The notes beneath the pieces are model-generated. The model did not search any database and was not told the origin of the DNA. It saw only the letters and a program-made list of their open reading frames with translations. The translations under genes and the position numbers were made by a program. DNA of 64,000 nt from Lachnospiraceae bacterium. Lineage in GTDB: Bacteria; Bacillota; Clostridia; Lachnospirales; Lachnospiraceae. The stretch is taken from NCBI GenBank assembly GCA_902363665.1, contig CABJAW010000017.1, forward strand, positions 1 to 64,000, written 5' to 3'. Shown piece after piece: positions 27,208 through 36,410 of this stretch (position 1 is its first letter; the number at the start of each line of letters is the position of its first letter).

Positions 27208-28002
27208 TCAGATTTTTGACGATTTCCGGTACTGTTCTTTCCATTCTTCCAGCACCTGCCCGCGCGGCCGTTGCATCATCCGCTCCTTTTCTTCCTGATA
27301 TTCTTTCTGCATGCATACCTTTGCATTGTGCTCCTGGATCTTCTGTACCAGATACGGGTCGGCATCCAGTTCTTTTAACTTTTCCTGATACTCCTTCCCG
27401 GAAAGGAAAAGCGGAAGCGCACTGATATATTTTCGGAATGTTTCTTTTGTCTTCGTAAGGCGGTACGCCTCCAGAAAACATTCTGCAGCCTGCTCAAACC
27501 GGAACAGTCCCGCATACGCCACGCCCAGGTTATTCCAGATCGCACCGTAAAACTGTACACCGAGCTTGCCCGGACTTTGCCGTTTTAAAATCTGCTGGTA
27601 CTCCCAGACTGCGCGCGCATACATTTTTTCTTTGGCAAGGTAATCTCCGCGCATTTTCTGCTTCATATCCGCTGACTGCACTTCCAGCTTTGCCAGCTCC
27701 TCCTGATATTCCCGCATCTGCGTGTTCGTCAGATAACCGGCCTCCCGGAAAATCGGAAGGATAAAGAATCCGGCTCCATCTTTCTTTTCCAGCTGCTCAT
27801 AGAGCTGACGGTAGAGCTTTTTCAATCCGAGTTCATCCCGCAGCCAGTCCAGAAGCCGCTCATTCATCAGCGTCTCATCGATCAGACAGGCGTTGTTATA
27901 CAGATAAAAGCAGAGCTCTTCCAGCGAATAAATATTTGTGCGGATATTTTCAATATAGTATGGTTTCTTTGCCTGCGGAAGCAGACACAGATCGTAGCTC
28001 AT
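27208..28002 (-). CDS. TPR-like helical protein, unknown function
   Basis: A 264-residue soluble, helical protein. A TPR-like pair of helices is visible near residues 160-195 (AIWNNLGVAYAGLFRFEQAAECFLEAYRL). The C-terminal ~60 residues are very charged and probably coiled coil. I do not recognise the N-terminal domain (MSYDLCLLPQAKKPYYIENIRTNIY). It is the last gene of the operon nrdR - DUF5717-like - DUF5716-like - this gene, with a 25-base gap and an AGGAGG site. It is a likely partner of the two large proteins. Confidence 0.75.
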   Translation of the reverse strand: MSYDLCLLPQAKKPYYIENIRTNIYSLEELCFYLYNNACLIDETLMNERLLDWLRDELGLKKLYRQLYEQLEKKDGAGFFILPIFREAGYLTNTQMREYQEELAKLEVQSADMKQKMRGDYLAKEKMYARAVWEYQQILKRQSPGKLGVQFYGAIWNNLGVAYAGLFRFEQAAECFLEAYRLTKTKETFRKYISALPLFLSGKEYQEKLKELDADPYLVQKIQEHNAKVCMQKEYQEEKERMMQRPRGQVLEEWKEQYRKSSKI

Positions 28003-28027
28003 GTTTTTTCCTCCTGTTTGCTCCGGG

Positions 28028-29341
28028 TCAGAAATGGATTTCTCTTTTCCAGGTCAGTCCGGAGGTCCGGCAGAGTTCGCCGAATCCAAGGTCCTCGATC
28101 TCCACCACGCAGCAGTCGGCTGCTGTAAAGTAAACGGTCATCCGCAGACGTGTGGCACGGTTTGGGCGCTTCGGAAGCCCGCTCAGGCGCAGAATATGCA
28201 AAACCGGCTCTCCTCCCGTGATCGGGCGCGAGGTCAGGCGGAGCTCATTTTCACCATCCGGGATAAACTCACAGGTATGGTGTGCCTCGTACCAGTTGAT
28301 CCCGGCATTTACCAGCGGATAAAGCTCTTCTTTTCCGCGGATGCGCATTTCCATCGCCAGGTTGACCCGGATCATATCACGTCCCCCAAATAAAATTCCG
28401 CGGTCCGCGATCAGGCCGGAGCGCTCCATCGCCGCATAGCAGGCTCCTTTGGAATACAGATTTTTTCCCTGATATGCATGGCGCTTGAAGCACAGAAACT
28501 TAATCGACTGTACTGCCCAGCTCTTGTTAAAATAGGAACCGATCAGGTAACTAACAGACACTACCCTGCGTTCAAACAGCTTTTTGAGTAGCTCAAAAAA
28601 CAGCCGGTCCCGCTCCTCGTTCCATGCTTCATCATCCATTTCCCCACGCACGGACGCATCCATCTTCTGGCTGACAACCAGTTCCGCCCTCGCTACCGCC
28701 GGACGCGTCGAATGATCGATGTGAAGAATATACCCTAAAATCGTCTCATCCACACACTCGATCAGTGCGACGTCGTGATACCACAGTTCTTTTTTCTGAT
28801 TGACCGTATAATAATAAAAAGAAGAGAGATAATCCTGCATAAAGATCTGTTTCCGGTCAATCCCGAGCTTTTGCAGTGCGCCGGTCAGCACCGTGCTCCA
28901 GCGTTTCGTCAGGTCGCGCACCGTCACCATCACTTTCACTTCTGCATTCTGCGCAAGAAGCTTCAGAAAATTCATACACGTACGAATGTAGATTGCAAGC
29001 AGTTCCTCCGGCTCATAGACGATCTCCTGATCCTGCAGCTTTGTTCCATTTTCAATTTTTTCGTAAATGCCGAAGATGCGGAAGCGATCCACCGCTTCCT
29101 CCTCCGTCTGCACATCCGCATCCCACAGATGCCATTCTCCCGCTGCATCCATGCGAAGCCCCATCGGAAGCAGGTAATCGTCCTCTCCCGCAGTACGGCT
29201 CACCGTCAGCGGCTCCTTAACCGACTGATGGAAATACGTCATCTGCGCGTAGTCCCGGTTCAATTCCAGCCCCAGGATCAATTCATTTGATGCCTGTACC
29301 ATCTTTTCAAACACCATCCTGTATTTTCTAGTCTGCTGCAT
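28028..29341 (-). CDS. DUF5716-like protein with degenerate Hsp70/actin-type fold
   Basis: A 437-residue protein, probably of the Clostridia-restricted DUF5716 family (recalled, not searched). The pattern suggests an actin-like ATPase fold: a starting beta hairpin LILGLELNRDYAQMTYF (21-37), a lobe II-like stretch VKVMVTVRDL...LGIDRKQIFMQDYLSSFYYY (135-178), VALIECVDE (191-199) where phosphate loop 2 would be, and YLIGSYFNKSW (265-275) with GKNLYSKGACYAAM (292-305), like the adenosine motif and following helix of Hsp70. The Asp-x-Gly motifs are lost, so ATP hydrolysis is doubtful. Its ATG directly follows the stop of the 1197-aa gene (TAAATG). Confidence 0.75.
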   Translation of the reverse strand: MQQTRKYRMVFEKMVQASNELILGLELNRDYAQMTYFHQSVKEPLTVSRTAGEDDYLLPMGLRMDAAGEWHLWDADVQTEEEAVDRFRIFGIYEKIENGTKLQDQEIVYEPEELLAIYIRTCMNFLKLLAQNAEVKVMVTVRDLTKRWSTVLTGALQKLGIDRKQIFMQDYLSSFYYYTVNQKKELWYHDVALIECVDETILGYILHIDHSTRPAVARAELVVSQKMDASVRGEMDDEAWNEERDRLFFELLKKLFERRVVSVSYLIGSYFNKSWAVQSIKFLCFKRHAYQGKNLYSKGACYAAMERSGLIADRGILFGGRDMIRVNLAMEMRIRGKEELYPLVNAGINWYEAHHTCEFIPDGENELRLTSRPITGGEPVLHILRLSGLPKRPNRATRLRMTVYFTAADCCVVEIEDLGFGELCRTSGLTWKREIHF

Positions 29342-32300
29342 TTACTGCAGAGTAAACAATTCTTTTGTGACATAACCCATCTGCAGATAATTTTCCATCT
29401 CCTGTTCCAGCTGCTGCAGATCCTGTTCCTTTTGAGCACGGATCATGCGGTTGATCAGCTCGTACCCACTTCTGCCGTCTGTCCCTGCATCGGAAAGCTT
29501 CAGCACTCTCTGATCTGTGCGTTTGCGCTCCCCCTGACACTCCTCCTCGAGATAGCACTCGATCTCATCCGCGTAAAACAGCGTAAACTCCCGGACAAAA
29601 ACACCCTCGAAGCAGTTTTTCATCACCTCTTTGCGGTACGCGCCTTCCTTTCCCGCCTCACGGAAAAAGATTGTCACCGTGTGCGATGGGTCACAGACGT
29701 ATTCAACAAAGACATGACCCTCCATCTGATATGGCCGCAGCAACTCTTCATCAAAGCGCATCCAGAACGCAAACCGCATTCCTTTCGTGCTGAATTCTTC
29801 CAGCATCTCTGCCGCATAACCGCGCTGTTTCTTTGAGAGAGTCACCTGTGACGAATAATACTGCAGCAGCGCCAGACGGCAGACCTCTTCCTGCTCTGCC
29901 AGACGATTATTTTCCTTTAAGTAAGCGTAGTCCTTCTCCAGGTAATGGAAAATGCACTCGGCCGTAGCCATCCCTTTTACAAAATATTCATATGCCTTCA
30001 GGTTCAGATAGGCGCAGCAGATTTTTCTTCTGCCCATCTTTCTGGCATAAGCTTCAAAGACCGGTTCCGAACCCTGTGTACCGCTTCCCGTAAAGAGGAT
30101 CATCGTCATGATCTTCTCCTCAAGCAGCATGGTATCCAGCCCAAAGCTTCCGGCCGCCTCCCAGAGATGTTTCATTTCTTCTATGGAACCCTCATAGTAA
30201 AGCAGAAGGTAGCGCAGCAGTTTGTCATCGTACTTCCCGCTCTCAAAACAGAAATGGCACAGGTACAGAAGCATCGTATTTTCGGCAAATTCCAGTTCCA
30301 GTACCATCCGGCTGCAGATCCGTACAAGCTGCAGCAGCGGAATGCCCTCAAATCCATAGACATCCAGAAGAGAAAAAGCATCCTTGCACATCCCCTCTTC
30401 TGCCAGAAGTGTGATCAGCGCCGCTTTATCGACTTTCACATAATCCAGATAATCGATTCCTTCCAGAAAGCCAGGCAGTGATTCGTCCCTTAAATGTTCC
30501 GTATAATAATGCAGTACTGTCTGCCGCAGCTTTCCTCGGTAATCTGCTGAAAATTCCTGCTGTGCACAGCCCTTCACCAGAAACGGAAGCGTCTTCTGAT
30601 TGATCAGGCCCGCCTCCAGACTGATTGCACACACAAACAGGATCATTCCGGCATGTTCCGGAGATACGCACCACTCCAGCATTTCTTTGCTCTCAAACAG
30701 CTTTTTTCTGCTGCAGAACACATCCGCCGGGTAACGTACGCCATCCACATCCTCCACAACTACGATACTGTCCGGATCATAGATCGCAATACTGCATGCG
30801 CCGTCCGAAAATACGGCAGAATATTCCTCTGCCAGACGCTCCGAATGCACCGTCAGGCTGCGCAGCCTCGGAGAATCGGTCGTAAAGCGGTACGTAAACA
30901 GCAGCCTGGAAAGCTGTTCCGTCATATTTCGCGTCATATTTTCTTTGCGGATGAACGTACGGTAAAGCTCAGCCAGATCCTCCGTCATCCGCCCCATTTC
31001 CAGCTGGTCAACCGCAAATTTTTCCATCGCAGCGCGGTAAGTGCGGTACATCTGTGGATCTTTCTCCTGCCTTTTGGCAATCCGTCTGTAAATCGCCGCT
31101 CTTCTGCGGTAGTCAAGTGTCGTATCATAGGCAAAATACATGCGGATGATCTGCGGCATCCTGCAAAGATCCAGCTGCGGTGTGGACTCCATATAGTACT
31201 CATACAATCCGGTCAGACGAAGCTCCTGCGCCACGCCGCGTGCATACCACACAAATGCCTTCTCGTCACGCCGCTCTCCCTTCATCAGCTGCAGACAGAT
31301 CGCCCTTGTCATCTCAGGAGACGGTTCTTTTTCAAACGCAGCTTCCAGAATCTGAAAAAGCTGCGGCGAATATTTTCCGTAATGGGAAGCAAGCACCGCA
31401 AGATGACGGACCATTTCCACAGTCAGCACATCCTCTTTCGCCGCAAAACGCAGTACCTGCAGCTCAAACAGACTGATATGGCGCATCAGAAACGGATTTT
31501 CGAGCAGCGCCTGATATGCTTCATAATATAAAATCCTGCTGCGGCAGCCATATCGGAACTGTTCCGCGGCAGCCTCATACCTTGCCGCCCCATCCCGCAG
31601 CAGATTTTCCTGCAGATAAAATAAAATCCACTGCAGCTTCCAGTTTGTCTTATCCTTATAGAAAAGGGCCCGAATCTCTTCCTCCACCTGATCGACATAC
31701 GACGCTTCCTGATAGAAAAATGTCGTCAGATAGCGGTAAAAACCATAGCAGTCGGGTGTCTTAAAATGACTCTTCCGCGATTCCAGTGCTTCCAGCAGCC
31801 GCAGTGCGCGCTGGCGTTTTCCGGATGCAAAGTAAAGCTGCACCAGAAACAGATCCGCATACGGATCCTCCCCTCCTGCTCTGTGATAGCTGCCAATCAC
31901 ATTGATGGAACGCTCCGTCCACGTCTCCAGATCGATTTTTTTCAGACGGAACCGGATATACAGCTCCTCCAGCTTTTTCTGCAGATTATTGCGGACACGC
32001 CTCTGCTGCCGGTCCGGATGCCCTGCTTCCCGCGAAGCACACACGTCCACCGACAGTCTCTGATACGGCGTCTCAAATACGACCCTCGCATAATTTTTTC
32101 CACCATGCATCTTTTTCGGATCAATCACAAGCTTCAGATCAAAGGTACTTCCGATGAACTCATCTGCCGTAAGCGCCTTTTTTTCCGGCCTTACAAAAAG
32201 TGAATCGGACTCGACCGTGATCTTCTGGAAGCCCCAGCCACTTCGAATCAGCTGCACCGTTTCAGCGGAATCATCCGACAGTTCTTTTATCTCTATTTCT

Positions 32301-32935
32301 GTCCGGTCAAGGGACAGCTGCACCGTTTCCTTATAACCAAACCGGCAAAGAAATTCCTCCAGCGTCTGATAGCTGAAACCGGTCATGCCAAGCGCCTCAT
32401 ACCATGCGTATTTTTCCGGCTCTTTTTTCAGCGCTTCGCCAAACTCCGGGCGCAGGAAGTTGCGGTAAGCCTGCTGAAAATCCTCTTTTGCAAGTGCCGC
32501 CAGTGCGTCGCCTGCGCTTCCTTCCAAAGACAGGTCTTCTGTTTTTTCTTCCGGCTTCGTATCCAGATCCCGTTTTGAACTTTCTTCCGGAAGCGTCAGG
32601 ATATATGGTAAACGATATTCTCCAATGTCACTGCAGATTGTAAAAAAGCCCTGTTCCCTCCCGCCTTCCGGAAATCCGTTTCCATCCGCCTGATAGTGGA
32701 TCTCCGCACGGACTCCCTGAAATTCGATCGGTTCACACCTCATCCGTGGATTTGACGAATAGATAAATCCGCGGATTTTTCTTCCGTCGCGCCCGGCCAG
32801 CGCAAAAGTTCCCCTGACTGCCTTTCCAGGAGCAACTTTTACCTCCAGCTCTTCCGGCGCCATCAAAAGCTTCGGCGCTTCATATTCAAATTTTCCATTC
32901 AATAACTGTTCGATTCTTTTTTTCAATCTGACCAC
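29342..32935 (-). CDS. Very large DUF5717-like protein: beta-sandwich domains plus alpha-solenoid
   Basis: A protein of about 1197 residues with no signal peptide or membrane helix. Residues ~20-115 look like a beta-sandwich (VAPGKAVRGTFALAG, GEYRLPYILTL). A second one lies at ~203-302. Residues ~325-1080 are almost all helical, like a TPR/HEAT-type solenoid. The last ~110 residues return to mixed fold (HVFVEYVCDPSHTVTIFFRE). It resembles the DUF5717 family of Lachnospiraceae (recalled, not searched). The GTG at 32935 starts the frame, but AGGTGG sits better for a TTG at 32926. It begins four bases after nrdR. Function unknown; a scaffold role is inferred. Confidence 0.78.
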   Translation of the reverse strand: MVRLKKRIEQLLNGKFEYEAPKLLMAPEELEVKVAPGKAVRGTFALAGRDGRKIRGFIYSSNPRMRCEPIEFQGVRAEIHYQADGNGFPEGGREQGFFTICSDIGEYRLPYILTLPEESSKRDLDTKPEEKTEDLSLEGSAGDALAALAKEDFQQAYRNFLRPEFGEALKKEPEKYAWYEALGMTGFSYQTLEEFLCRFGYKETVQLSLDRTEIEIKELSDDSAETVQLIRSGWGFQKITVESDSLFVRPEKKALTADEFIGSTFDLKLVIDPKKMHGGKNYARVVFETPYQRLSVDVCASREAGHPDRQQRRVRNNLQKKLEELYIRFRLKKIDLETWTERSINVIGSYHRAGGEDPYADLFLVQLYFASGKRQRALRLLEALESRKSHFKTPDCYGFYRYLTTFFYQEASYVDQVEEEIRALFYKDKTNWKLQWILFYLQENLLRDGAARYEAAAEQFRYGCRSRILYYEAYQALLENPFLMRHISLFELQVLRFAAKEDVLTVEMVRHLAVLASHYGKYSPQLFQILEAAFEKEPSPEMTRAICLQLMKGERRDEKAFVWYARGVAQELRLTGLYEYYMESTPQLDLCRMPQIIRMYFAYDTTLDYRRRAAIYRRIAKRQEKDPQMYRTYRAAMEKFAVDQLEMGRMTEDLAELYRTFIRKENMTRNMTEQLSRLLFTYRFTTDSPRLRSLTVHSERLAEEYSAVFSDGACSIAIYDPDSIVVVEDVDGVRYPADVFCSRKKLFESKEMLEWCVSPEHAGMILFVCAISLEAGLINQKTLPFLVKGCAQQEFSADYRGKLRQTVLHYYTEHLRDESLPGFLEGIDYLDYVKVDKAALITLLAEEGMCKDAFSLLDVYGFEGIPLLQLVRICSRMVLELEFAENTMLLYLCHFCFESGKYDDKLLRYLLLYYEGSIEEMKHLWEAAGSFGLDTMLLEEKIMTMILFTGSGTQGSEPVFEAYARKMGRRKICCAYLNLKAYEYFVKGMATAECIFHYLEKDYAYLKENNRLAEQEEVCRLALLQYYSSQVTLSKKQRGYAAEMLEEFSTKGMRFAFWMRFDEELLRPYQMEGHVFVEYVCDPSHTVTIFFREAGKEGAYRKEVMKNCFEGVFVREFTLFYADEIECYLEEECQGERKRTDQRVLKLSDAGTDGRSGYELINRMIRAQKEQDLQQLEQEMENYLQMGYVTKELFTLQ

Positions 32936-32939
32936 CTGA

Positions 32940-33389
32940 TTAATTTAAAAATTTTTTTAATTCATCCATAAAAGTGTTGACATCCTTGAATTCGCGATAA
33001 ACCGACGCAAAGCGGACGTATGCCACAGCGTCCAGCTCCTTTAGTTTTTCCATCACGATCTCTCCGATCACCTTACTCTCCAGTTCCTTTTCTTCACGGT
33101 TAAAAATTTCCCGCTCCACCTCATCGAGCATCTCCCTGATCTTCTGGATCGGCGTTGGCCGCTTATAGCAGGCACGCATCACACCATCCTCGATCTTTCT
33201 CCTGTCATACTGCTCTCTCGTCCGGTCTTTTTTTATCACAACAAGTGGAATCGTCTCCACTTTTTCATAGGTAGTAAACCGTCTGCCGCACGCGTCACAC
33301 AGACGGCGTCTGCGGATGGAACTGTTGTCATCAGCCGGTCTGGAATCCACCACTCTTGTATCATCCTGATTGCAAAACGGACATTTCAT
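32940..33389 (-). CDS. nrdR: Transcriptional repressor NrdR
   Basis: A 149-residue repressor of ribonucleotide reductase genes. The N-terminal zinc ribbon has MKCPFCNQD and [16 protein letters not shown]. An ATP-cone follows ([28 protein letters not shown]), through which ATP/dATP controls DNA binding. It is the first gene of a four-gene unit with three proteins of unknown function. It has a strong promoter at 33419-33447 and a GGAGG site. Confidence 0.96.
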
Positions 33390-33418: not shown

Positions 33419-33447
33419 AGTATAACCAAAACACGAAATACTGTCAA
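33419..33447 (-). promoter_or_regulatory. Promoter of the nrdR-DUF5717-DUF5716 operon
   Basis: On the minus strand, perfect -35 TTGACA (33442-33447), a 17-base spacer and -10 TATACT (33419-33424), 30 bases before the ATG. No obvious NrdR-box pair was identified. Confidence 0.78.
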
Positions 33448-33511: not shown

Positions 33512-33826
33512 ATGGGGGAAAAAGAATGCTGCCGTCCAGGCTGCTGTCCGGATCCGCATCCGCATCCCGTCCGGCTGTGCGCCCTGCGTCAGAAGGAAGT
33601 CATCAACATGCGCACCTGCCGTTCCATGGGCTGTATCAGCGACCTGGAAATCGACTGCTGTACCGGCTGTATCCTTGCCCTGGTCGTCCCCGGTCCCGGT
33701 CGGCTGTGCTGGTTTCTCGGACGGGATTTTGAATTTTTCATTCCATGGCGGTGTGTCATACAGATCGGTGCTGATATTATCCTGGTCGATGTGGAAGAGG
33801 AAAAGTGCAAAAAAAGATGTGGATGA
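33512..33826 (+). CDS. YlmC/YmxH family sporulation protein (PRC-barrel)
   Basis: A 104-residue protein. The family core starts at VRLCALRQKEVINMRTCRSMG and continues with DLEIDCCTGCILALVVPGPGRLCWFLGRD and IGADIILVDVEEE, a PRC-barrel fold. Relatives are linked to sporulation in Bacillota. The start at 33512 follows GGAGATCC and adds a short extension rich in Cys, His and Pro (MGEKECCRPGCCPDPHPHP) that the usual family lacks. It converges with sigG and ends inside their shared terminator. Confidence 0.82.
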   Translation: MGEKECCRPGCCPDPHPHPVRLCALRQKEVINMRTCRSMGCISDLEIDCCTGCILALVVPGPGRLCWFLGRDFEFFIPWRCVIQIGADIILVDVEEEKCKKRCG

Positions 33827-33859
33827 ACCGTGTCCTTTCCGGTTCATCCACATCTTTTT
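33811..33859. terminator. Bidirectional terminator between ylmC-like gene and sigG
   Basis: AAAAAGATGTGGATGAACC and GGTTCATCCACATCTTTTT form a 19-bp perfect stem. It includes the stop codons of both converging genes. Confidence 0.9.
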
Positions 33860-34638
33860 CACGTCCGCAGATAATTTTTCATGCTTTTGAGCGCATTCTT
33901 TTCCAGACGGCTCACCTGCGCCTGCGAGATTCCAATTTCACAGGCCACCTCCATCTGGGTCTTTCCCTCGTAAAACCGAAGTTCGATAATGTGGCGCTCC
34001 CGGTCGTCAAGCCGCTTCATCGCTTCTGCGAGGGAAATGGATTCCACCCAGTTCTCTTCCCGGTTTTTCCGGTCACTGATCTGATCCATCACGTACAGCG
34101 TATCCCCGCCCTCCGTATAGACAGGGTCATACAGGCTGACCGGGCTCTGGATCGCATCCATCGCATACGTAATCTCTTCTTTCGAAATCCCGATCTCTGT
34201 CGCGATCTCCTCAATCGTCGGCTCCTTCAAATGCACTCTTGTATAATTTTCTTTTGCATAGATTGCCTTGTATGCGGTATCCCGCAGGGAGCGGCTGACA
34301 CGGATCGAATTATTATCCCGCAGATACCGTCTGATCTCCCCGATGATCATCGGTACCGCATACGTCGAAAACTTCACTTGCAGTCCCGTATCAAAATTAT
34401 CTACCGCCTTCATCAGCCCGATACAGCCAATCTGAAACAGATCATCTGCGTTTTCGCTGCTGCCTGAAAAACGCTTGATCACACTGAGCACAAGCCTTAA
34501 GTTTCCTTTTATATACAGTTCTCTCGCCTTTTCGTCTCCTGCCTTAATCCGTTCAAACAGGAAGTCCTTCTCCTCTGCCGTCAGAACCGGAAGCTTCGAA
34601 GTATTGACCCCGCATATTTCCACTTTATTAAGCGCCAT
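33859..34638 (-). CDS. sigG: RNA polymerase sporulation sigma factor SigG
   Basis: A 259-residue late forespore sigma factor. The conserved N-terminus is NKVEICGVNTSKLPVL. Region 2 has LYIKGNLRLVLSVIKRFSG, DDLFQIGCIGLMKAVDNFD and FSTYAVPMIIGEIRRYLRD. The region 4 helix-turn-helix is MEVACEIGISQAQVSRLEK. The start at 34638 follows CAGGAGGA with eight-base spacing. It sits directly downstream of sigE, as in most spore formers. No confident SigF/SigG promoter could be read in the 140-base gap. Confidence 0.95.
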   Translation of the reverse strand: MALNKVEICGVNTSKLPVLTAEEKDFLFERIKAGDEKARELYIKGNLRLVLSVIKRFSGSSENADDLFQIGCIGLMKAVDNFDTGLQVKFSTYAVPMIIGEIRRYLRDNNSIRVSRSLRDTAYKAIYAKENYTRVHLKEPTIEEIATEIGISKEEITYAMDAIQSPVSLYDPVYTEGGDTLYVMDQISDRKNREENWVESISLAEAMKRLDDRERHIIELRFYEGKTQMEVACEIGISQAQVSRLEKNALKSMKNYLRT

Positions 34639-34778
34639 GTGAATCATCCTCCTGGAATTTGATCTGGGCAAAGCAGATATTCTAGGTCCGCTTCGCTGCT
34701 CAATTAAATGATTCACATTTTCATGGCCGCCTATGCATCCGCCGAAAAAATTTCAGAAAGTTTTCGGCCTTGACAGTT

Positions 34779-35522
34779 CTACTGCACCCTCACTTCCATC
34801 TCGCGGCGCAGTCTTCTTATAATCCGCTTCTCCAGACGGGAAATGTAAGACTGTGAAATTCCAAGAAGATCCGCCACTTCTTTCTGCGTTTTTTCTTCTC
34901 CATCCCTTGTATTGATTCCAAAACGCAGCTGTACGATTGTCTGCTCCCGTCTCGAAAGCTTTTTGATCGCCCCCTGCAGCACCTGATATTCTGCCTCCGT
35001 CTCCATATCACGGTAAATCACGTCCTCATCTGTCCCAAGAATATCGGAGAGCAGCAGTTCATTTCCGTCCCAGTCCACATTGAGCGGCTCATCGATCGAT
35101 ACCTCCAGCTTTGTCTTACTGTTGCGGCGCAGGTACATCAGAATCTCGTTCTCGATACAGCGCGACGCGTACGTTGCGAGTTTGATCTTTTTTTCTGGAT
35201 TGAAGGTATTGATCGCCTTGATCAGCCCGATCGTTCCAATGGAGATCAGATCCTCCACTCCGACTCCGGTATTGTCAAATTTTTTCGCTATGTACACGAC
35301 CAGCCGCAGATTCCGTTCGATCAGCTGGCTTCTCGCTTTTGCATCTCCCTCTTTTCCGAGCATTGCAAGCAGCTCCTGCTCCTGCCCGGCCGTAAGCGGC
35401 GGCGGAAGCACCTCCGTCCCGCCAATATAATGCACCTCGTTTGTCCGATGAAACAGCATATCTCCAAATCCCGCGGCCATCTTCAGCTGAAAACGCTGCG
35501 GCACTGCAACTCTCACTATCAT
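34779..35522 (-). CDS. sigE: RNA polymerase sporulation sigma factor SigE (pro-sigma-E)
   Basis: A 247-residue mother-cell sigma factor. The N-terminal ~30 residues are an amphipathic pro-sequence. Processing by SpoIIGA is expected just before the conserved [12 protein letters not shown]. Region 2 ([42 protein letters not shown]) and region 4 ([19 protein letters not shown]) match SigE closely. It follows spoIIGA by 77 bases and is likely co-transcribed from the Spo0A-type promoter at 36411-36443. Confidence 0.96.
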
Positions 35523-35599
35523 ATAATCCCCTCCTGCCTGTACGGATCTCCGTTTTCACGTTCTCACGCAGCGAAACATCACGAGCCTCCCTGCTGCGT

Positions 35600-36379
35600 T
35601 CACACATATGTTTCTCCGGCATGCTGCGGATGCAGGATGATCCGGTATCTTCCGTCCCCGCTCAGCTCATTCCCGCTGATCGCAAGGATCGGCCCCCGGA
35701 TGATGACCGTACCCTCTGCAGTCACGACCTGCATTTCATCCGCCCGAAATGCACGCATCCATCCTTTTTTCCGCCCGATCGAACGATACGGAATCAGGTA
35801 AAACCCTCTGCGCGTCTCCCATCCGTCCGGCAGAAGCCTCCCTGCCGCTTCCTGATCCAGGATGCTGACCGGACTTTTGCCAAGCGGTTCCTGCAGACTG
35901 TTTCCCGTATCTACGATTCCTTTTACCGTCATGCTTTCGCTCTCCCATGTAATTTTTACTTCCGCTTCCCGCCTCTGGCAAAGCCTGCGTTCCCTCTGTT
36001 TTTTCCCTGCAAAATGCAGAAGAAAAAATGCAGCGCAGCTCCCCGCCGCAGCCGGAACACCCGTCAGTTCCACAACTGCCTGTACCACGCCGCCAAAGCA
36101 GAATGTCACAAACAGAAGTATCGCAAGATCCCGTGGTATCTCCCGCCATTTTTTTCCTGCAAGCGCTGCGCTTCCTGCCATCAGCGAACCAGAAAATGCC
36201 AGCGCCCGGCTTCCGGCGCAGAGAAAAAGTGTCATCATCCCAGCACCGATCAGGCTTCCTGCCCCCAGTCGGCGACAAGTCAGATGTTTCCCTGCTGTTT
36301 TTGATGCAAGCAGAAGCAAAAGCCCCTGCGTAATTACCTGTTCCAGAAAAAACTGATCTATGTAGAATTCATAATACAA
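35600..36379 (-). CDS. spoIIGA: Sigma-E processing peptidase SpoIIGA
   Basis: A membrane aspartic protease that cleaves pro-sigma-E after a signal from the forespore. From the preferred start it has 259 residues: five hydrophobic helices in the first ~125, then a soluble domain with the active Asp in GIVDTGNSLQEPL (about residue 157) and a final GDGRYRIILHP. I choose a TTG at 36379, giving YYEFYIDQFFLE, because this is the conserved family N-terminus and a GGGGTG site precedes it. The ATG at 36409 would add ten odd residues (MPCCSRGGCS). Confidence 0.92.
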   Translation of the reverse strand: MYYEFYIDQFFLEQVITQGLLLLLASKTAGKHLTCRRLGAGSLIGAGMMTLFLCAGSRALAFSGSLMAGSAALAGKKWREIPRDLAILLFVTFCFGGVVQAVVELTGVPAAAGSCAAFFLLHFAGKKQRERRLCQRREAEVKITWESESMTVKGIVDTGNSLQEPLGKSPVSILDQEAAGRLLPDGWETRRGFYLIPYRSIGRKKGWMRAFRADEMQVVTAEGTVIIRGPILAISGNELSGDGRYRIILHPQHAGETYV

Positions 36380-36410
36380 AGAACACCCCCCGCGGCTGCA
36401 GCATGGCATT

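Follow-up and report, generated by a model that had tools for sequence, protein, structure and literature searches.

Hsp70 chaperones such as DnaK of the DnaK/DnaJ/GrpE system combine a nucleotide-binding domain (NBD) with a beta substrate-binding domain (SBD-beta). Among their relatives, Ssz1, which partners the J-protein Zuo1 in the yeast ribosome-associated complex (RAC), is thought to act as a permanent holder of peptides or clients, and Hsp110 acts only with ATP bound; Sse1 binds ATP and carries a long insertion and a lid. Bacterial conflict systems centred on a GAP1-N2 GTPase, presumably those of Kaur et al. 2020, offer a further comparison. In the portions of the source considered here, these systems join HSP70 and GrpE (with or without DnaJ, TPR or FNIII proteins) and sometimes include a second Hsp70 (PMC7159879); a survey of DnaK duplications, also represented by portions, reports bacterial Hsp70 paralogs, one with an operon-linked exchange factor (PMC11019930). 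Here we analyze a compact operon in a 64,000-nucleotide stretch of DNA from Lachnospiraceae bacterium (assembly GCA_902363665.1, contig CABJAW010000017.1, positions 1 to 64,000; hereinafter, the window) that encodes a 1197-amino-acid (aa) DUF5717 protein, a 437-aa DUF5716 protein and a 264-aa TPR protein. The structure model of DUF5716 points to a complete Hsp70 with a degraded ATP site, and the operon is probably the reduced form of a longer one in which related families of the order encode three live Hsp70s, one dead Hsp70, a GrpE-domain protein and scaffolds of their own. The long operon thus shares Hsp70s and a GrpE domain with DnaK/DnaJ/GrpE, and the live parts are absent in the window.

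The DUF5716 protein of the window matches PF18980 (DUF5716_C; E 7.3e-97, 324 bits against a cut-off of 34.7), and the 1197-aa protein matches both PF18984 (E 2.5e-232, 774 bits) and PF18983 (E 5.4e-84, 282 bits), each with a cut-off of 25; an earlier note, made from the sequence alone, had assigned both families, and rightly. Structure modelling and fold search yielded an actin-like, two-lobed NBD followed by a beta-sandwich substrate-binding domain, that is, the Hsp70/actin fold suspected in the note and not the non-actin fold that it had named in advance as fatal to its proposal. Among the 50 best PDB matches listed, the ranks that this comparison covers, the only entry not labelled as Hsp70 is a chain of the ciliary C1 apparatus (7sqc_Z0), and an actin of the FtsA or MreB type was accordingly rejected. 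Residues were aligned to DnaK with the L001 protein, which is 95% identical to the DUF5716 protein of the window; region 135-178, read in the earlier note as lobe II-like, aligns to what we take to be lobe I (subdomain IA). In the beta domain, where the model has strands from E341 to E436 (DSSP), SGLPKRPNRATRLRMTVYF aligns to DnaK DGIAPAPRGVPQIEVTFDI, and many residues, including NWYE, H.CE, RP and ED.G, are invariant in the family alignment. The inter-domain linker is degraded (FGGRDM opposite DnaK ILLLDV), and there is no helical lid (SBD-alpha): the modelled protein ends in a strand (E430-436). According to the model, then, DUF5716 is an entire Hsp70, including the substrate-binding beta domain, with a degraded nucleotide site.

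The operon is a fixture of its family. The taxonomic groups used here are those of Lachnospiraceae bacterium 10-1 (G007, locus L058), and the names Lachnospiraceae and Lachnospirales for its family and order are our own reading. DUF5716 was detected in 197 of 200 family genomes, with one match each, in 92 of 196 genomes of the order and in 4 of 299 across the phylum; DUF5717_N was found in 196 of 200, 93 of 196 and, in the class, 14 of 293 genomes (13 over the cut-off). The two family samples differ slightly, and only the DUF5716 sample was filtered for completeness. Neither family was found in G034 and G087, G093 has DUF5717 and no DUF5716 match, and G512 and G538, present only in the DUF5717 sample, have no DUF5717 match. 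In the order sample, 90 genomes carry both, 2 DUF5716 alone, 3 DUF5717 alone and 101 neither. The two genes are neighbours in 102 of the 105 genomes compared among the matches listed, the remaining 3 having the matches on different contigs. Linkage was also examined in publicly recorded loci; the 80 used are the nearest of at least 584 relatives and so are biased towards the clade of the window. DUF5717 adjoins DUF5716 in 79 of these and the TPR gene does so in 78, both far above chance; in L039, DUF5717 was not detected, the contig ending 49 bases from the start of DUF5716, and in L002 and L030, which lack the TPR neighbour, DUF5716 lies at or nearly at the contig end. The linkage of the three genes across genomes, on which the earlier note had staked its proposal of a dedicated unit with a scaffold and a TPR protein in Lachnospiraceae, is thus conserved. 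The trio is a near-universal, single-copy core of the family, and such retention argues for a basic cell function. By contrast, the note's description of the operon as nrdR-linked applies only to the clade of the window: NrdR is encoded just upstream in 33 of the 80 loci, all within L001-L050, and in none of the distant set (L051-L080), where 26 loci extend over 1.5 kb upstream, so that a functional link to nrdR was discarded.

Second-tier DUF5716 matches in the order lead to loci of other families that contain a longer, colinear operon. One of these, L089, is from Defluviitalea phaphyphila, a species that has a protein identical to the L089 pseudo-Hsp70 and that the NCBI taxonomy places in Defluviitaleaceae, Lachnospirales. 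Gene order was tabulated for 33 hand-picked loci (13 first, of which L099 and L100 proved compact, and 20 later) and read in the 31 long-operon loci (L088-L098, L119-L138) as far as each reaches. It runs BetaN, solenoid (fused in some), Hsp70-A, a coiled-coil protein with a GrpE domain at its end (scoring over the Pfam cut-off in all 11 proteins tested), pseudo-Hsp70, Hsp70-B, Hsp70-C (which carries a vWA domain at its C-terminus), TPR and, in some loci, a membrane protein. The run from solenoid to TPR was seen in 21 of the 31 loci; others are cut by locus ends or carry inserted genes, and in several the block is broken up (for example, L133 and L134). Hsp70-A is present in 27, B in 29 and C in 24 of the 31 loci, and the phosphate-2 (P2) motif pattern was recognized in 26 of 27 A, 29 of 29 B and 23 of 24 C proteins, the exceptions being a 302-aa piece in L128 and a split gene of L088. 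The motif is absent from all 31 pseudo-Hsp70s and from the compact loci L099 and L100; judging by this motif, the same Hsp70 of the long operon is the dead one in every locus examined. PF00012 matches 4 of 7 pseudo-Hsp70s of these other families (hereinafter, the outgroup) over the cut-off (L089, L091, L096, L097). No J-domain protein was detected among the operon proteins scanned with Pfam, and an unlinked partner is possible; a J-protein partner of the RAC type is thus missing from this set, and, unlike Ssz1, DUF5716 has DUF5717 and TPR proteins as constant neighbours and a more degraded ATP site. The long-operon lineage closest to Lachnospiraceae, L088 (4205-11353), has Hsp70-C and the TPR gene each broken into two open reading frames (ORFs) and a short GrpE-domain protein of 279 aa; this operon may be decaying, or the assembly may contain errors.

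Decay of the ATP site can be followed across these proteins in an alignment of 79 Hsp70-like rows, one 499-aa DnaK-like row being left out. Lys70, Glu171, Thr199, Asp201 and DLGGGT are invariant, gaps aside, in DnaK and the live Hsp70s A, B and C. The outgroup pseudo-Hsp70s have Leu, Ile or Val in place of Lys70 and Arg in place of Asp201 (14 of 14 each), and Glu171 is kept in 1 of 14; Asp8 of the phosphate-1 (P1) loop is kept in all 14 and the P2 Asp in 13. None of the 14 DUF5716 rows retains Lys70, Glu171 or Asp201, three have Thr199, and the P2 Asp (194) is Asp in 4 and Glu in 6, so that the catalytic set of a functional Hsp70, DLGGGT included, is not found in DUF5716. The position of Asp8 holds Asp in 10, Glu in 3 and Gln in 1 of the rows; the window has Glu (GLELN). 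The alignment bears out the degenerate ATP site of the earlier note; as for its claim that the Asp-Gly phosphate motifs are lost, this is right for P2 (Lys70 is also gone) and only partly so for P1, where Asp is mostly kept in the family. As far as the aligned residues tell, decay is further advanced in DUF5716 than in the outgroup pseudo-Hsp70s.

Compact and long operons correspond gene by gene. Hidden Markov models (HMMs) of the outgroup proteins were seeded from L088, L089 and L092; those for TPR and Hsp70-C each had one seed, from L089, and that for the membrane protein had one from L088. Of the 80 compact loci, all 80 have a match to pseudo-Hsp70, 79 to solenoid, 78 to TPR (E 2.5e-19 to 1.7e-4), 76 to BetaN and 29 to the membrane protein; no locus was hit by the models of Hsp70-A, Hsp70-C and the GrpE protein, and that of Hsp70-B recovered the DUF5716 protein alone (57 loci, best E 2.6e-15). 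Direct comparison of the DUF5716 and pseudo-Hsp70 profiles gave a probability of 99.9 (E 1.5e-31, 413 columns), and DUF5716_C matches the pseudo-Hsp70 of L088 with 250 bits, even though motif-intact Hsp70s A and B are encoded in that operon. In a large protein search (best 120 of 180; the 7997 best candidates scored), the pseudo-Hsp70 profile retrieved relatives up to E 4e-99, with DnaK-like proteins next at 2e-21; in the class, it matched 290 of 293 genomes, mostly in proteins of DnaK length, and is non-discriminating. DUF5717 is a fusion, because L088 BetaN covers PF18984 profile positions 4-289 and the L088 solenoid protein covers 301-874 together with PF18983. What points to a solenoid is a weak TPR_19 match in 5 of 28 DUF5717 members (best E 0.0015), and searching DUF5717 by sequence against the PDB returned immunoglobulin matches only (best E 0.25). 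The compact operon of L100 (6387-11186, genome G178) has a scaffold ORF of 853 aa, and BetaN is not matched anywhere in this locus; its beta part could be dispensable or encoded elsewhere. The 264-aa protein, taken for a TPR protein in the earlier note, is one by TPR_2, barely above the cut-off (27.9 against 27 bits).

The direction of change was read from two trees, in both of which Hsp70-C rows were trimmed to 520 residues. The DnaK-containing tree covers 14 outgroup loci, 11 DnaK-like rows and, for DUF5716, 12 rows from the 80 loci as well as L099 and L100. It places live A and C, which are not separable from DnaK, at the start of a series that continues through B and pseudo-Hsp70 to DUF5716. 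For the 39-row tree, the L041, L099 and L100 DUF5716 rows and five Hsp70-B rows were dropped and five pseudo-Hsp70 rows added before the test. DUF5716 groups with L088 (SH-aLRT 97 in the first tree and 98 in the second) and then with L093 (98 and 83), a constraint keeping the pseudo-Hsp70 rows together was rejected (p-AU 0.012, 39-row tree), and the live Hsp70-B proteins of L088 and L093 pair up (SH-aLRT 99). The compact operon is thus a probable product of reduction of the long one on the way to Lachnospiraceae.

Some lineages have a fourth partner. A protein of about 395 aa, with two hydrophobic stretches (three in L080) between long charged segments, is encoded directly behind the TPR gene in 29 of the 80 loci, all among L051-L080 (in L054, the gene is cut by the contig end), and closes the operon in L088, L093, L099 and L120. 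Of 200 family genomes, 81 have a match to it. Its position was compared with that of the DUF5716 match in 62 of these, among the matches listed: in 61 it follows on the same strand at a distance of 0.7-1.25 kb, and in G088 it is on another contig. G556, G567, G571 and G573 have weaker matches (E 1e-17 to 1e-27) outside the operon.

The explanation that we favour, at a probability of about one half, is that the trio is the reduced, ATP-independent core of a dedicated Hsp70 machine and forms a scaffolded, non-cycling peptide holder. The three live Hsp70s and the GrpE-domain protein would have been lost along the line leading to Lachnospiraceae; DUF5717 and the TPR protein would fix the pseudo-Hsp70 in one conformation, in which its beta domain may serve as a permanent holder or presenter of peptides or clients. 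Once the cycling Hsp70s were gone, the exchange factor would be superfluous and be lost too; joint loss of both is what would be expected if nucleotide cycling was given up. Where the fourth gene is present, the two-transmembrane coiled-coil protein may tether the assembly to the membrane. A broader formulation, to which we hold more tentatively, is that Lachnospirales own a scaffolded multi-Hsp70 machine, with three cycling Hsp70s and GrpE arranged around an obligately dead Hsp70, from which Lachnospiraceae deleted the ATPase engine, leaving the dead subunit, scaffold and TPR protein to do an essential job without cycling.

The strongest competitor, in our opinion unlikely, has DUF5716 as a co-chaperone or exchange factor of the housekeeping DnaK, akin to Hsp110/Sse1, with DnaK having replaced Hsp70s A-C and being recruited by the scaffold to one client. 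This idea stays viable because a strong Hsp70 match was found in 19 of 19 genomes searched. Hsp110, however, requires bound ATP, yet DUF5716 lacks Lys70, Asp201 and mostly Thr199 and, unlike Sse1, has neither the ATP motif set nor a lid; fold similarity cannot separate Hsp110 from DnaK (the Z scores are tied). Somewhat less probable still is structural exaptation, whereby the trio chaperones nothing and serves as a structural component, such as part of an envelope or cytoskeleton-like assembly, with the beta domain a mere interaction surface. Degradation of P1, P2 and the linker would fit such a role, as would the two-transmembrane coiled-coil partner of some lineages; the many invariant residues of the beta domain speak rather for something like a binding cleft, although a fixed interface could account for them equally. 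The converse polarity, in which the compact operon is ancestral and other families inserted the live Hsp70s and the GrpE protein, draws on the wide spread of compact forms (35 of 92 positive genomes of the order, classed by score) and is improbable given that DUF5716 is nested within the long-operon pseudo-Hsp70s, that the outgroup copies are less decayed at the P1 and P2 Asp, and that four insertions in one fixed order would be needed.

Several observations weigh against the favoured explanation of a reduced, non-cycling holder. At E <= 1, PF00012 has no hit in the DUF5716 protein of the window, nor does it hit 3 of the 7 outgroup pseudo-Hsp70s (L088, L092, L093); the DUF5716 family profile retrieved nothing from the PDB by sequence, and TM-scores of the full-length fold matches are modest (0.3-0.5). 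The link between DUF5716 and Hsp70 is therefore one of modelled structure and of intermediates, the DUF5717 fold is predicted from sequence, and complex formation, peptide binding and membrane location are predictions from the genes. The membrane protein was not found in G001-G005, five genomes of the L001-L050 loci, so that tethering cannot apply there. The trees are quick searches, flagged for long branches and skewed composition, which makes reduction rather than expansion probable only, and the absence of Hsp70-A, Hsp70-C and the GrpE protein is read from the loci, the whole-genome Hsp70 search covering few genomes with the compact operon.

Within the window, the ORFs for nrdR and the 1197-, 437- and 264-aa proteins follow one another on the minus strand with gaps of 4, 0 and 25 bases (Table 1); the positions and gaps agree with those in the earlier note. 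Because 24 of 27 aligned relatives start DUF5716 at Met14 of the window protein (29302), upstream of which lies an AGGATGG stretch, this is probably the real start, with a true DUF5717-DUF5716 gap of 39 bases.

Table 1. Coordinates of the operon, its domains and motifs, and adjacent signals in the window
Feature	Positions	Strand	Basis and remarks
Sigma-70-like promoter before nrdR, in the clade of the window putatively also of the whole operon	33419..33447	-	TTGACA-17-TATACT, 11/12; consensus match only
nrdR (149 aa)	32940..33389	-	PF22811 + PF03477; clade-specific neighbour, outside the conserved unit
DUF5717 scaffold, 1197 aa, GTG start	29342..32935	-	PF18984 + PF18983; two proteins, often separate in relatives, fused
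BetaN-matching part of DUF5717, ~residues 1-300	32038..32935	-	Separate BetaN protein in relatives; boundary approximate
Solenoid-matching part of DUF5717, ~residues 300-1197	29342..32037	-	Separate solenoid protein in relatives; weak TPR similarity
DUF5716 pseudo-Hsp70, 437 aa; 424 aa from likely start 29302	28028..29341	-	PF18980; structure model and fold search
Dead nucleotide-binding domain, ~residues 18-314	28400..29290	-	Part of DUF5716
Degenerate phosphate-1 loop GLELNRD (Hsp70: GIDLGTT)	29252..29272	-	Alignment to DnaK
Lost phosphate-2 loop VALIECVDETILGY (Hsp70: MVYDLGGGTFDVSI)	28730..28771	-	Alignment to DnaK
Adenosine loop VSYLIGSYF (Hsp70: VILVGGSTR)	28529..28555	-	First Gly kept in 14/14 DUF5716 rows
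GKNLYSKGACYAAM, counterpart of Hsp70 NPDExVAxGAA	28427..28468	-	Alignment to DnaK; strongly conserved in the family
Beta substrate-binding domain, ~residues 316-437	28031..28396	-	DSSP on the model; DnaK and Sse1 alignments reach residue 436-437
TPR protein, 264 aa	27208..28002	-	TPR_2; short relative of the ~385-aa TPR protein in the long operon

The strong shared promoter claimed in the earlier note has a plausible candidate in the sigma-70-like site upstream of nrdR, the best of 9 promoter-like sites in 9 kb (threshold 9 of 12; 7.3 expected by chance). Downstream of the operon, Pfam identifies a glutamine amidotransferase/phosphoribosyltransferase and an adenylosuccinate lyase, presumably PurF and PurB. 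Terminator-like sites number 8 against 7.8 expected by chance; the minus strand has seven such matches, six within the DUF5717 and DUF5716 genes and one within purF, and none between genes. Upstream of nrdR (33859-36409, minus strand) lie genes for SpoIIGA and two sigma-70 family factors, which we take to be SigE and SigG; this order is typical of endospore formers. Between these and nrdR, a PRC-barrel domain is encoded on the plus strand (33575-33799; PF05239, E 2.3e-8). Beyond these neighbouring genes, nothing points to division, stress or sporulation, and no test was aimed at these processes.

Other multi-Hsp70 clusters also occur in Clostridia. In Lachnospiraceae bacterium 10-1 (L111, 2154-9144) and in L113, a live Hsp70 pair (570 and 727 aa) adjoins a 1021-aa FNIII protein, with a weak TPR match, and in L112 (1325-13804, G855), three live Hsp70s (532, 530 and 496 aa) follow a run of repeated paralogs that look TerD-type to us. 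The clusters L111-L115 were rejected as versions of the DUF5716 operon, their best scores against its Hsp70 HMMs being 127-306 versus about 840-1630 for its own full-length Hsp70s. Judged by the portions of the source considered here, the L111 cluster, with its FNIII protein and two Hsp70s, has the look of the GAP1-N2 systems and coexists with the DUF5716 operon in strain 10-1; the DUF5716 operon resembles those systems in joining Hsp70s, GrpE and TPR proteins and differs in being single-copy in nearly all sampled family members (PMC7159879). Pfam detected no GTPase family in the operon proteins of the window and of L088 and L089, a scan in which GAP1 was not looked for by name. An anti-phage defence system was rejected, the three window proteins having 0 PADLOC hits; those of relatives are weak only, linking live Hsp70s B and C to one candidate model (3.9e-11 and 2e-7), the GrpE protein to ZorA (0.0014) and the membrane protein to DruC (0.0052). 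An NCBIfam scan of the window operon proteins gave no match, nor did a plasmid search for the operon or a viral search, the patterns of which came from the window protein only and reach no further than close relatives. No description of the DUF5716/DUF5717 trio or of the long operon was found in a literature search, where the word DUF5716 occurred in PMC8115291 alone, a paper that by its title is apparently unrelated; the main text of the DnaK survey contains neither 'Clostridia' nor 'Lachnospir', and the DUF5716 operon does not appear in the portions considered here (PMC11019930). The multi-Hsp70 long operon in other families of the order is new.

For Lachnospiraceae, these results mean that two DUFs of nearly every sampled genome gain an origin and a role open to testing, that one of the two gains a fold as well, and that a nine-gene Hsp70 operon comes to light among the relatives of the family. 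They pose the question of why a dead subunit is kept when all the surrounding ATPases were lost, and with natural before and after versions of one machine, it could be tested in bacteria how pseudo-Hsp70s and live Hsp70s share the work.

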